A stretch of 64,000 nt of DNA from the NCBI RefSeq assembly GCF_015206895.1, contig NZ_JADEXU010000024.1, positions 1 to 64,000 of the forward strand, in the 5' to 3' direction. Shown here piece after piece: positions 5,225 to 11,987 of the stretch. Position 1 is the stretch's first letter; the number at the start of each line of letters is the position of its first letter. Made by a program: the position numbers and the translations under genes. Source of the stretch: Nostoc sp. LEGE 12450. Its GTDB lineage: Bacteria; Cyanobacteriota; Cyanobacteriia; Cyanobacteriales; Nostocaceae. The notes under the pieces are model-generated. The model was not told where the DNA came from. It was given only the letters and a program-made list of their open reading frames with translations, and ran no database searches.

Positions 5225-6412
5225 ATGAAGATATTGGTATTGAGTTGGGAGTTTCCACCAAGGATTGTTGGGGGAATTGCGAGGCATGTAGCGGAGTTGT
5301 ACCCGGAACTGGTAAAGCTAGGACATGAAGTCCACCTGATTACGGCGGAGTTTGGTCAGGCATCGATGTATGAGGTGGTTGAAGGAGTAAAGGTACATCG
5401 GGTGCCAGTGGCACATAGTAACGACTTTTTCCACTGGGTAGTCAATCTCAACTTGAGTATGGGAGATCACGGTGGTAAGTTGATCTTGGAGGAAGGGCCC
5501 TTTGATTTAATTCATGCCCACGATTGGTTAGTTGGAGATGCTGCGATCGCTCTCAAGCATAATTTTAAAATACCACTAATTGCCACAATTCATGCTACAG
5601 AATACGGACGCTATAACGGTATTCACACAGAGATCCAAGGCTATATAAATGGCAAAGAAACCTTGCTGGCTTATAATGCTTGGCGGATTATCGTTTGTAG
5701 CGACTATATGCGCCAAGAGGTAGAACGAGCATTACACAGCCCTTGGGACAAAATCGATGTTATCTATAACGGTATCAGAGCCGAAAAGAAACAGCATCAC
5801 GTAGATTTTCATGCGCTAGATTTTCGCCGCCAATTTGCTACAGACAATGAGAAAATCGTTTACTACCTCGGTCGCATGACCTACGAAAAAGGTGTACCTA
5901 TATTACTTAATGCTGCACCAAAAATCCTTTCGGAAATGGGAGGTAACGTTAAATTTGTCATCGTTGGTGGCGGCAATACTGACCATCTCAAGCGCCAAAC
6001 CTGGGATTTGGGAATTTGGCATCATTGCTATTTTACAGGTTTTCTCTCTGATGATTACTTAGATAAATTCCAGACTGTTGCTGACTGTGCCGTTTTTCCT
6101 AGCCTTTACGAACCATTTGGAATTGTAGCTTTAGAAAGCTTTGCTTCTCGCGTGCCTGTAGTGGTTTCTGATACAGGTGGTTTTCCCGAAGTGGTGCAAC
6201 ATACCAAAACAGGTATTGTTACTTGGGTGAACAATTCCGACTCTTTAGCTTGGGGAATTTTGGAAGTGTTGAAAAATCCAGGTTATCGACAATGGCTGGT
6301 GGATAACGCTTATGAGGATTTAGAGCGGCGCTTTAGCTGGCCGAAATTAGCTAGGCAAACTCAAGAAGTATATCAGCGAGTTGTGCAAGAGCGATCGCAA
6401 ATTTCCTGGTAA
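5225..6412 (+). CDS. Glycosyltransferase family 4 (glycogen-synthase-like)
   Basis: A retaining GT-B glycosyltransferase of CAZy family GT4. The N-terminal half begins with an ADP/UDP-glucose-transferase-like signature, SWEFPPRIVGGIARHVAEL, and has HAHDWL. The C-terminal half carries GRMTYEKG (nucleotide-sugar phosphate contact) and the EX7E motif in EPFGIVALE. The start at 5225 is supported by GGGGAG nine bases upstream. The opening resembles the small GlgA/GT4 proteins that many cyanobacteria have besides true glycogen synthase. The acceptor cannot be told from sequence, and the neighbours give no pathway context. Confidence 0.88.
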   Translation: MKILVLSWEFPPRIVGGIARHVAELYPELVKLGHEVHLITAEFGQASMYEVVEGVKVHRVPVAHSNDFFHWVVNLNLSMGDHGGKLILEEGPFDLIHAHDWLVGDAAIALKHNFKIPLIATIHATEYGRYNGIHTEIQGYINGKETLLAYNAWRIIVCSDYMRQEVERALHSPWDKIDVIYNGIRAEKKQHHVDFHALDFRRQFATDNEKIVYYLGRMTYEKGVPILLNAAPKILSEMGGNVKFVIVGGGNTDHLKRQTWDLGIWHHCYFTGFLSDDYLDKFQTVADCAVFPSLYEPFGIVALESFASRVPVVVSDTGGFPEVVQHTKTGIVTWVNNSDSLAWGILEVLKNPGYRQWLVDNAYEDLERRFSWPKLARQTQEVYQRVVQERSQISW

Positions 6413-9076: not shown

Positions 9077-10348
9077 TTAAGCTGCAATCCGGGGTCGAGT
9101 ATTGGATGCAGTTTGAGCCAACAAACGAGTGTAAAGTTGAGTCAGTCGGAATCCGACACTGTACCAACTAAAGGCAATTTCTGTCCGTTGTCGAGCCGCT
9201 TCACCTAATTGGTCTCGCCAAGTTGGGTTAATAAGAATACGGTCTATAGCAGCGGCAAAAGCTACTTCATCTTTAGGAGGCGCAAGTAACCCTGTGACTT
9301 CTGGTACAACAGTAAACTGCAACCCACCAACATCACTAGCTACGACTGGTGTCTGACTAGCCATTGCCTCAATAGCAACTAAACCAAAAGGTTCATAGTG
9401 GCTGGGGACTACGCAGACATCAGCGGCGGCGTAGTAGAAGGGGAGAACAGTTTCATCTAGGCGACCAGCAAAGGTTGTACAATTTTCTAATCCGAGTTCA
9501 GTCACGATGCTAGCAATGCGATCGCGTTCTATTCCATCACTCTGACCGGGACGGCTACCACCGCCAATTACTAGCTGGAGGTTAGCTTCACCCCTTAAAC
9601 TAGACTTGGCAACGGCTCTTACCAAGGTTTCAATTCCTTTGCGGCGGTCAAAACGACCAACATAGAGAACCATTTTGGCATCTGGGGCAATTCCCAACTT
9701 TTCTCGCGCCGCAGTTCGCTGAATTCCCCCAAATTTGTCAGTATCAGTGCCACAGGGAATCATTTCAATGTTCCCTTTGCTAGAAACGAGTACCCGCATG
9801 TGTTTCTGTTCTTGTGGACTGGTTGCAACTACACAGTCTATAGTTTCCAAGCAGGCTTTTTCTACAGCTAATCGTTTGGCTGCAATTACGGGAACATCAC
9901 CAATACTTCTGTATTTAACGGCTCCTAAAGAGTGGTAAGTATGTACCTGAATCAGGGGTTGCTGTTTTTTCAATTCCATACCCACCCAAGATGATAACCA
10001 GTAGTTGGTATGAATTAAGGAGTAATGAAACCCTTGGCGCTGCTGAAATTTCTGGAATTCTTCGATGAATTCAGGTAAATGGTCGAACAAGTTATCTCGC
10101 CCGATAAATTCGGCTGGGCCAGCTTTTAACCGAATAGTACGACAGTTTGGGCTATGTTGAGCGATCGCAGCTTGTTCAGGATTACTACGACGAGTGAACA
10201 TATCCACTTGCCAACCTTGCTGGGCTAAGGCATAACCTACTTGACGCACATAAACATTTTGACCTCCAGCCTCTTCTTGACCAATTTCAACCGCCGGGTC
10301 GCCATCAATAGAAATTAGGGCAATGCGATGTTTCTTATTCTGGAACAT
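9077..10348 (-). CDS. GT4 glycosyltransferase, probable sucrose-phosphate synthase
   Basis: 423-residue GT-B enzyme. The N-terminus (DGDPAVEIGQEEAGGQNVYV) has the GGQ-V-Y-V acceptor-loop pattern of sucrose-phosphate synthases and related GT4 enzymes. Later come HSLGA, the donor-site segment GRFDRRKG and the EX7E motif EPFGLVAIE. The size fits the minimal SPS of Nostoc-type cyanobacteria, which lacks the fused phosphatase domain. The proposed reaction is UDP/ADP-glucose + fructose-6-P to sucrose-6-P, making the compatible solute sucrose. Inositol-phosphate-type GT4 specificity (MshA-like) is the main alternative. Regulation: the 5' leader holds a c-di-AMP riboswitch (10515-10690), which fits an osmolyte gene. 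The start is ATG at 10348 with GAGG upstream. Confidence 0.8.
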   Translation of the reverse strand: MFQNKKHRIALISIDGDPAVEIGQEEAGGQNVYVRQVGYALAQQGWQVDMFTRRSNPEQAAIAQHSPNCRTIRLKAGPAEFIGRDNLFDHLPEFIEEFQKFQQRQGFHYSLIHTNYWLSSWVGMELKKQQPLIQVHTYHSLGAVKYRSIGDVPVIAAKRLAVEKACLETIDCVVATSPQEQKHMRVLVSSKGNIEMIPCGTDTDKFGGIQRTAAREKLGIAPDAKMVLYVGRFDRRKGIETLVRAVAKSSLRGEANLQLVIGGGSRPGQSDGIERDRIASIVTELGLENCTTFAGRLDETVLPFYYAAADVCVVPSHYEPFGLVAIEAMASQTPVVASDVGGLQFTVVPEVTGLLAPPKDEVAFAAAIDRILINPTWRDQLGEAARQRTEIAFSWYSVGFRLTQLYTRLLAQTASNTRPRIAA

Positions 10349-10514
10349 AGCTGATTTTCACCTCAAGGCAAATAATCCTGCCTCAAACGCCAGAAATCAA
10401 GATATTATTATCCTCTCTCAAGGCCGAGGGCAGGTACAACGAACCGCAAAGTTACCAGCCAAAGGACACTGACGAGAACAAGGCATTACTTATTAAGAAT
10501 GCTGCTCGTTCAGT

Positions 10515-10690
10515 CTCTTCTCAATGCCGACGAAGTTAGCTGACGGGCTAGGACTGAGAGATGTCCTTCTTAAGAAAGTTATGAGTTATGAGTTTAGTAA
10601 CTTTTAACTCCTCACTATTAACTATTAACTTTCTTCAAAATACGCCCCAGATTTGGTTCCTCCGCTCCGGTTTACCCTTTACAAATGTTT
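10515..10690 (-). promoter_or_regulatory. c-di-AMP riboswitch (ydaO/yuaA class)
   Basis: Read on the minus strand, the 5' half contains GGGTAAACC followed by GCGGAGGAACCA (10653-10666) and CTGGGGCG. The 3' half contains AGCCCGTCAGCTAACTTCG then CGGCATTGAG (10520-10548). These are the conserved core blocks of ydaO/yuaA aptamers in the right order and orientation. The variable stem between them pairs AAGAAAGTTA with TAACTTTCTT. It is enlarged by short tandem repeats (GAGTTAT type) near 10575-10625. The aptamer ends about 165 bases upstream of the GT4 start codon, leaving room for an expression platform. Confidence 0.87.
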
Positions 10691-10970
10691 GTTGGGAATT
10701 TAGTGGATTAGGCAGACTGATTTATTTTTCTTAAAAGTTTTATAACCTTTAGTCATCAACTATGTCAAGAGTATGAACAAAAAAATGGTGATGCTAATCA
10801 CTTCAAAGCGCGTTGTAACTAGCTTTGAAGAATCAGACTGTAAGGGAAAGTTGGAGTTGTTGAGAAGCTCTCAAGAAGAAACTTACTGATGTTGATTGCT
10901 ACATTTTCTTTAGTTTCTGAGAATGAAATAATCTTGAAAGTTTCAAAGAGTTAAATATACCAATGGCGTA
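10691..10970 (-). other. Upstream promoter region of the riboswitch-GT4 transcript
   Basis: This AT-rich stretch lies between the aptamer and the end of the phosphatase pseudogene. It probably contains the promoter for the riboswitch RNA. I see no distinctive box, and no gene. Confidence 0.35.
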
Positions 10971-11987
10971 CTATTTTGCTAAACCAAGTGTCCGACCAGG
11001 AAAACCAGCAACGTCAAAATATCGAGTTGAGCCAACAATTTGATACTTCAAGATCGTTTTTAATCCATTAGTACTTGGTTGGGATGTCAAAGTATTAGAT
11101 TTAAAAGAAACTTTTTTAACTCCTTTGACCAAAGATTTATGTAAAACACGACCTATAAGTTTTCCTTGATGGGGAATATTCAAATTTAAAGTCTTAGCCA
11201 AGGTAATAGCCACATCAGCATTACTTACTGGTACTCGGTTTACAAAAGCTTTCTTAAAGTCAGAACCGATCGCAGCCATATAATTGTAAGTATCAGCACG
11301 GCTAAAAGAGCCATGCATTCCCTGTCCTTGCTGCAAAGAAGAGTCTGCAACTTCCACACCGCAAGCAGTTGGGTCGCCACAACCAGTATCAAATGTCCGA
11401 AAGTTTACTACGATTGCTGGGCTAGGAAGATGAGATTTACCATCAAGCCCGATCGCACTTAAGGGTAAAGTACCTGGAATGGAGCCTAATTTATCATTTA
11501 CAAATAAACCACTAACATAATCTTCTTTTAAGAGGATATTTACAACTTGTTTAGCAATTGCTTTGTTATTTGCACTATTAGGTAAATAAATCAAATCTGA
11601 ACCACCATTAGCAGCCACTAATACATCAGGTTTATTTGCTTCTTTAGCAATCAAACCGTTTTTAGAAAACTTACCTTGAGTTGGATCAACCGCAGTATTT
11701 TGCTTATCTGGATCGAACAAAGACAATCCTAAACCATGAGCAATATCAATAGCTAGAAAACCAGGTGGCAAAAATCCTTTCATCACATCTGGATAATCAA
11801 GCGTTCTTGAATAGCTGGTTTTACTCTCCTTGCTGATGGTAGAAAAACCGTGATCGGCCGTCACAAAAATATTTGTAGAAGCTTCTAAATTTAGCTGTTT
11901 GAGGACAGCGCGGATTTGGGCAAGATTTTGATCGACATTTTGACGAGCTGCAAGTGAAGTGGGGCCTGAATTTGGTAATCTAAATAT
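10971..11987 (-). pseudogene. 5'-truncated alkaline-phosphatase-superfamily gene
   Basis: The frame encodes the C-terminal part of a type I phosphodiesterase/nucleotide pyrophosphatase-like protein of the alkaline phosphatase superfamily. VTADHG is the metal-binding Asp-His motif. An I/LDIAHGLG block and a further metal-ligand-like AIGSDFKKAF block follow. The coding sequence continues upstream of that motif without an ATG, reading SLAARQNVDQNLAQIRAVLK. It then meets a stop at 11988-11990. The N-terminal half with the nucleophile Thr/Ser is therefore missing and no plausible start exists. The only start-like codon (GTG at 11864) falls inside the motif. It is best read as a decayed remnant. 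The flanking sequence shows no insertion element that would explain the loss. Confidence 0.8.

Follow-up and report, generated by a model that had tools for sequence, protein, structure and literature searches.

The leader of a sucrose-phosphate synthase (SPS) gene in Nostoc sp. LEGE 12450 very probably contains a ydaO/yuaA-class c-di-AMP riboswitch that, as part of the 5' end of the SPS mRNA, would set one of the two SPS paralogs of this cyanobacterium. Sequence comparison establishes that the aptamer is present, that its position is conserved, that it is restricted to a single SPS clade and that the leader downstream of it is conserved; the detailed architecture of the leader is a fresh proposal that is only partly supported.

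The aptamer and its target gene

A cmscan search of the window (the entire 64,000-nucleotide stretch of DNA analyzed here) against Rfam 15 identifies a match to RF00379 (ydaO/yuaA, c-di-AMP) at 10724-10510 on the minus strand, whose score of 67.1 bits exceeds the gathering score of 38 and whose E value is 2.1e-13 for a search size of 64 kb and 4227 families. No other match in the window rises above a gathering score, and this one spans model positions 1-134 of 134, that is, the full length with the conserved core. The initial annotation had recognized both halves of the aptamer on the minus strand by short motifs, all of which are found, and the covariance search that it proposed is significant; the interval that it assigned, 10515-10690, locates the aptamer and is slightly short, given that the 5' side with TCAGTCTGCCTAATCC reaches 10724. 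The main features are as follows.

10510..10724, minus strand: c-di-AMP (ydaO/yuaA) riboswitch aptamer (RF00379), with stretches of 33 nt and 61 nt in the variable loops
10577..10630, no strand assigned: heptanucleotide tandem repeats in the larger variable loop, AGTTATG at 10577-10594 and TAACTAT at 10598-10630 (Tandem Repeats Finder)
9077..10348, minus strand: sucrose-phosphate synthase, single GT4 domain, 423 aa (identity to Tll1590, active-site residues, Pfam GT4 domains)

The spacing between the aptamer end and the ATG (10348) of the GT4 gene, which lies on the same strand, is 161 nt. The full-length model match, the position in a 5' leader and the conserved core are shared with the RF00379 class; in contrast to the class, the window element has long peripheral loops, no terminator-like site was found by a scan for intrinsic terminators in 10300-10900, and the leader continues 3' of the aptamer into a conserved module of about 100 nt, which cyanobacterial transporter riboswitches share. 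The long variable loops with their tandem repeats might suggest a decayed or ligand-shifted relic that does not respond to c-di-AMP, but this appears highly improbable considering that the core fits RF00379 end to end, that the loops of relatives vary freely in length and widely in content, and that aptamer and leader are kept across genera.

The downstream gene had been annotated as an SPS-like GT4 gene, and the comparison with characterized enzymes bears this out. The best PDB match of the encoded protein is T. elongatus SPS Tll1590 (PDB 6kih), with 459 bits compared to 208 bits for the next enzyme; the two proteins are 52.5% identical over 413 columns, Tll1590 is reported as an assayed SPS (PMC7264703), and 11 of the 11 checked active-site residues named in that paper are kept (A48, Q51, R105, H158, R178, R249, R253, E331, P332, L335 and E339, numbered as the chain number minus 3). 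The SPS equivalog domain of NCBIfam, TIGR02472 (sucr_P_syn_N), scores 122.8 bits, under its cut-off of 576, and TIGR03449 (mycothiol_MshA) scores 273.8 bits, above TIGR02472 yet under its own cut-off of 462.5. The TIGR02472 model presumably covers another SPS type; because neither cut-off is reached, the SPS name is taken from the assayed relative and the retained residues. The missed equivalog cut-off and the higher, if insufficient, MshA score could be read as pointing to a product other than sucrose-6-phosphate, i.e., another sugar of the sucrose family such as glucosylsucrose, and T. elongatus is reported to encode a glucosylsucrose synthase adjoining SPS (PMC9909042). Such a specificity is improbable, however, because the assayed SPS is far ahead of any other enzyme in the PDB search, the glucosylsucrose synthase entries 7FGA and 7FG9 given in PMC9909042 are absent among the matches listed (60 of 72), and the F6P-contact and catalytic residues are all retained. 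These comparisons support the assignment of the gene to the single-domain cyanobacterial type of SPS.

Two neighboring frames deserve mention. A second GT4 glycosyltransferase gene is located near SPS on the plus strand (5225-6412); its best NCBIfam match, TIGR02149, stays below the cut-off (144.8 of 302.4 bits). Just 5' of the riboswitch, on the minus strand, a frame of 297 aa (10971-11864) has no Pfam match and, by eye, resembles the C-terminal part of an alkaline-phosphatase-superfamily protein with the front missing.

Distribution among relatives and paralogs

All 20 Nostocaceae loci searched with cmscan (L065-L084, from 29 other-genome loci of the family search) carry RF00379 just 5' of the SPS orthologue, and it precedes SPS in 37 of 48 named loci (20/20, 15/20 and 2/8) drawn from a scan of genome contigs; the two sets share genomes, and their records include metagenome assemblies. 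The arrangement noticed in the initial annotation, with the riboswitch upstream of SPS, is accordingly kept in the majority of the named loci, and the position of the aptamer before SPS is conserved across genera. The 11 loci that lack the aptamer (L148, L151-L156 and L158-L161) all show 74% identity or less. With the E value limit relaxed to 0.5, a search of 14 sources shows RF00379 in L183 and L185 and none in L148, L151-L154, L156, L184 and L186-L190.

Paralogous SPS genes give a different picture: RF00379 is present in 0 of 20 such genes (800 to 850 bases at the gene start were searched), each from a genome that also has an SPS with 78% or more identity to the window SPS. The same holds for the second SPS of the strain itself (contig C216, L095), which is 70% identical to the window SPS and 53.2% identical to Tll1590 and upstream of which cmscan finds no RF00379.

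In a tree of 66 SPS rows with Tll1590 as the outgroup, all 39 riboswitch-bearing rows fall into a single clade of 43 rows (SH-aLRT 97), and none of the 23 rows outside this clade has the riboswitch. The tree leaves out L162, which is only 40% filled, and L183, L187 and L188, which are second copies of records already included; it includes L012, a member of the riboswitch clade that belongs to another family of the same order. The clade rows without an aptamer are L148, L152, L156 and L184. The riboswitch label needs 3 changes on this tree, compared to a mean of 21 in shuffles, which test clustering only. This distribution fits one gain and two losses of the riboswitch before SPS; the root is unsure because the outgroup branch is very long, and the riboswitch-SPS arrangement may have more than one origin.

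SPS-like stretches were also encountered within longer open frames (G400:C200:45471-46703, 1282 aa, and G393:C9:28769-29986, 993 aa), which perhaps represent fused enzymes.

Leader architecture and direction of control

The features around the aptamer that enter the proposed mechanism, all on the minus strand, are listed here in the 5' to 3' order of the leader.

10739..10768, minus strand: promoter-like TTGACA-18 nt-TATAAA, with 14 nt between its end and the aptamer (read from the sequence)
10464..10472, minus strand: UCAGUGUCC, which can pair with the aptamer 3' tail AGAGACUGA (RNAalifold and pair counts in 37 leaders; covariation weak)
10429..10460, minus strand: H4 hairpin, GGCUGGUA...UACCUGCC, proposed to be the third arm of a three-way junction (94.6% of cells paired)
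10358..10364, minus strand: Shine-Dalgarno sequence GAGGUGA (read from the sequence and the alignment)

A strict scan, which demands T at the end of the second hexamer, finds no consensus promoter in 10300-10900. Of 49 sequences searched, 34 show the 5' anchor of the aptamer, and in 33 of these the loose pattern TTGAC...TA occurs just 5' of it (no chance rate computed); transcription would start just 5' of the aptamer.

The alignment of relatives shows strong conservation of the SPS leader 3' of the aptamer. For 37 leaders, the RNAalifold consensus consists of 26 predicted pairs, of which 2 vary on both sides, and has an outer UUGAG/CUCGR helix, a hairpin between the aptamer 3' tail and UCAGUGUCC, and the GGCUGGUA/UACCUGCC stem. 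When the 23 pairs of the putative junction are counted (the three helices with five neighboring pairs, excluding two small helices predicted by RNAalifold), standard pairs make up 95.3% of 850 cells versus 37.6-48.3% after sliding, and 10 of 500 shuffles reach 95.3%. The covariation of the junction is weak, its score being reached by 177 of 500 shuffles; 3 pairs change on both sides compared to a shuffled mean of 1.1, and 36 of 500 shuffles reach 3. Unusual folding stability was not found in the window leader, either after the aptamer (z of -1.35) or as a whole (-1.80).

Under the mechanism that we propose, binding of c-di-AMP would bring about formation of the aptamer closing helix P0 (UCAGUC with GACUGA), and in the ligand-free RNA the 3' strand GAGAAGAGACUGA (GAGAGGAGACUGA or a close variant in most relatives) would pair with the downstream UCAGUGUCC. 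P0 and the downstream hairpin are mutually exclusive because the same 3' tail can pair with UCAGUC at the aptamer 5' end. The long hairpin H1ext, the predicted ligand-free alternative to P0, would be joined by H4 and the outer UUGAG/CUCGR helix to give a three-way junction. This junction most likely represents the ON state, with c-di-AMP as the OFF signal and control at the level of translation given the lack of an intrinsic terminator in the scan, so that sucrose-6-phosphate would be produced when c-di-AMP is low.

Several other elements were considered for the leader. The Shine-Dalgarno sequence may be sequestered by H2 (CCUGCC/GGCAGG, 92.3% of cells paired) or by H3 (UUUGCC/GGUGAA, 85.1%), but the covariation of these helices does not exceed that of shuffles. 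A leader peptide (TTG or CTG AAC GAG CAG CAT following a run of purines) was discarded because, by eye, its frame is not conserved.

By eye, the transporter riboswitches have a layout like that of the SPS leader, with P0 opposed to a downstream pairing, and the H4 hairpin is visible in them too. The energies of the downstream pairing are better with the partner from the same row than with partners of the main other group, at -18.2 versus -14.8, -15.5 versus -13.5 and -12.7 versus -11.1 kcal/mol (87 of 93 rows; L007, L034, L055, L119, L149 and L150 were dropped). Nine rows, among them the third riboswitch of the strain, form a group in which both alternatives are mostly kept with different letters; its same-group mean of -13.3 kcal/mol is no better than that across groups, and group-level covariation was not seen among these rows. 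Some transporter leaders contain, by eye, CCGAG...CUCGG followed by a T run; because this combination is absent in others, no general terminator is claimed for them.

If the element is a riboswitch, repression of SPS by c-di-AMP is the likelier direction of control. Precedent within the class favors it: the kdp riboswitch of B. thuringiensis is reported to be an off-switch that acts by termination (PMC6488665), and the nlpC riboswitch of C. glutamicum an off-switch that probably acts on translation (PMC9960051). Folding of the 85 of 93 leaders in which a start was found gives no fixed direction for SPS. In the test by group, for which 65 of the 93 rows qualified and in which the sequences are related and the p values carry no kinship correction, the predicted accessibility of the Shine-Dalgarno sequence among 44 SPS leaders is higher in the free form in 16 and in the bound form in 13 (p 0.35); among 21 transporter leaders, a free aptamer tail is predicted to leave the sequence more open in 11 and less open in none (p 0.0004).

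The opposite sign, with the same riboswitch and target but with c-di-AMP turning SPS on, the ligand-bound leader being the translated one and sucrose rising with c-di-AMP under salt or osmotic stress, draws on physiology. Salt is reported to go along with more c-di-AMP in Anabaena PCC 7120 and with less in F. diplosiphon, and sorbitol with more in Synechocystis and F. diplosiphon (PMC5986932); the rise in Anabaena counts against a simple off-switch, and a figure legend in a review puts forward that c-di-AMP could induce osmoprotectant production (PMC4284465). The folding of the SPS leaders, 16 versus 13, leaves the sign unsettled. We nevertheless consider activation rather unlikely, since the class members characterized in PMC6488665 and PMC9960051 are reported as off-switches and the transporter leaders, which have a similar platform, are predicted to have a more open Shine-Dalgarno sequence without the ligand in 11 of 21 cases and a less open one in none.

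c-di-AMP signaling, related riboswitches and osmolyte synthesis

The genome of the strain encodes one diadenylate cyclase (PF02457, 129 bits), and the host can be expected to make c-di-AMP. It also encodes one 7TM-HD protein (PF07698), an architecture named for cyanobacterial c-di-AMP phosphodiesterases (PMC5986932). There are three S6PP matches, two of them strong, which are not specific because the S6PP family is matched in 11 of 14 control genomes too.

Two further RF00379 elements are located on one contig of this genome (L094, 6127-6356 and 9789-9924). An ABC transporter with a permease and an ATPase that reach the NCBIfam nitrate-type cut-offs follows one of them. The other, the third riboswitch of the strain, is followed by a Usp gene and a CitMHS/ArsB-type permease and is perhaps the counterpart of the c-di-AMP riboswitch before slr0753 of Synechocystis, which is reported as verified (PMC10117731). 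The slr0753 riboswitch is a fellow cyanobacterial member of the class, but its target is a transporter, whereas the target here is an enzyme of osmolyte synthesis.

More broadly, RF00379 is present in 179 of 291 genomes of the order and in 131 of 145 of the family. The first downstream frame was obtained for 54 of 60 riboswitch loci, which were chosen by score from the order and family searches and do not constitute a census: 38 frames form one cluster (its representative resembles an ABC permease by eye), 6 belong to a cluster with a CitMHS-permease-like representative (also by eye), 3 are SPS-like, and 7 fall into smaller clusters or are single. In two genomes (L099 1216-4493 and L102 927-3986), SPS and a nitrate-type ABC permease are divergent and share an intergenic region, each with its own c-di-AMP riboswitch.

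Elsewhere, c-di-AMP is a messenger that controls potassium and osmotic balance. A review and a research paper (PMC4284465, PMC5986932) credit Nelson et al. 2013 with osmoprotectant-synthesis targets of c-di-AMP riboswitches in cyanobacteria, so the link from c-di-AMP to osmolytes is less new than the initial annotation implied. A description of SPS under a c-di-AMP riboswitch was not found in titles and abstract openings of a literature that largely lacks subscription papers. According to a 2023 review on cyanobacteria, few c-di-AMP effectors have been identified so far (PMC10117731), and the response regulator OrrA reportedly regulates sucrose synthesis in Anabaena PCC 7120 under salt stress (PMC6753628).

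For the Nostocales as a whole, we lean slightly toward a scenario in which c-di-AMP would be a direct compatible-solute switch, with one SPS paralog captured once, early in the clade, and the P0/junction platform reused for SPS and the ABC transporter. As judged from the genomic data, the SPS leader can be assigned with good support to a known riboswitch class, its target being both sensible and conserved, and c-di-AMP probably also sets the production of a protective sugar in this Nostoc-type cyanobacterium. The signal-controlled SPS paralog would be set apart from the switch-less one, and the proposed route from c-di-AMP to sucrose synthesis provides a concrete, testable connection in filamentous cyanobacteria.
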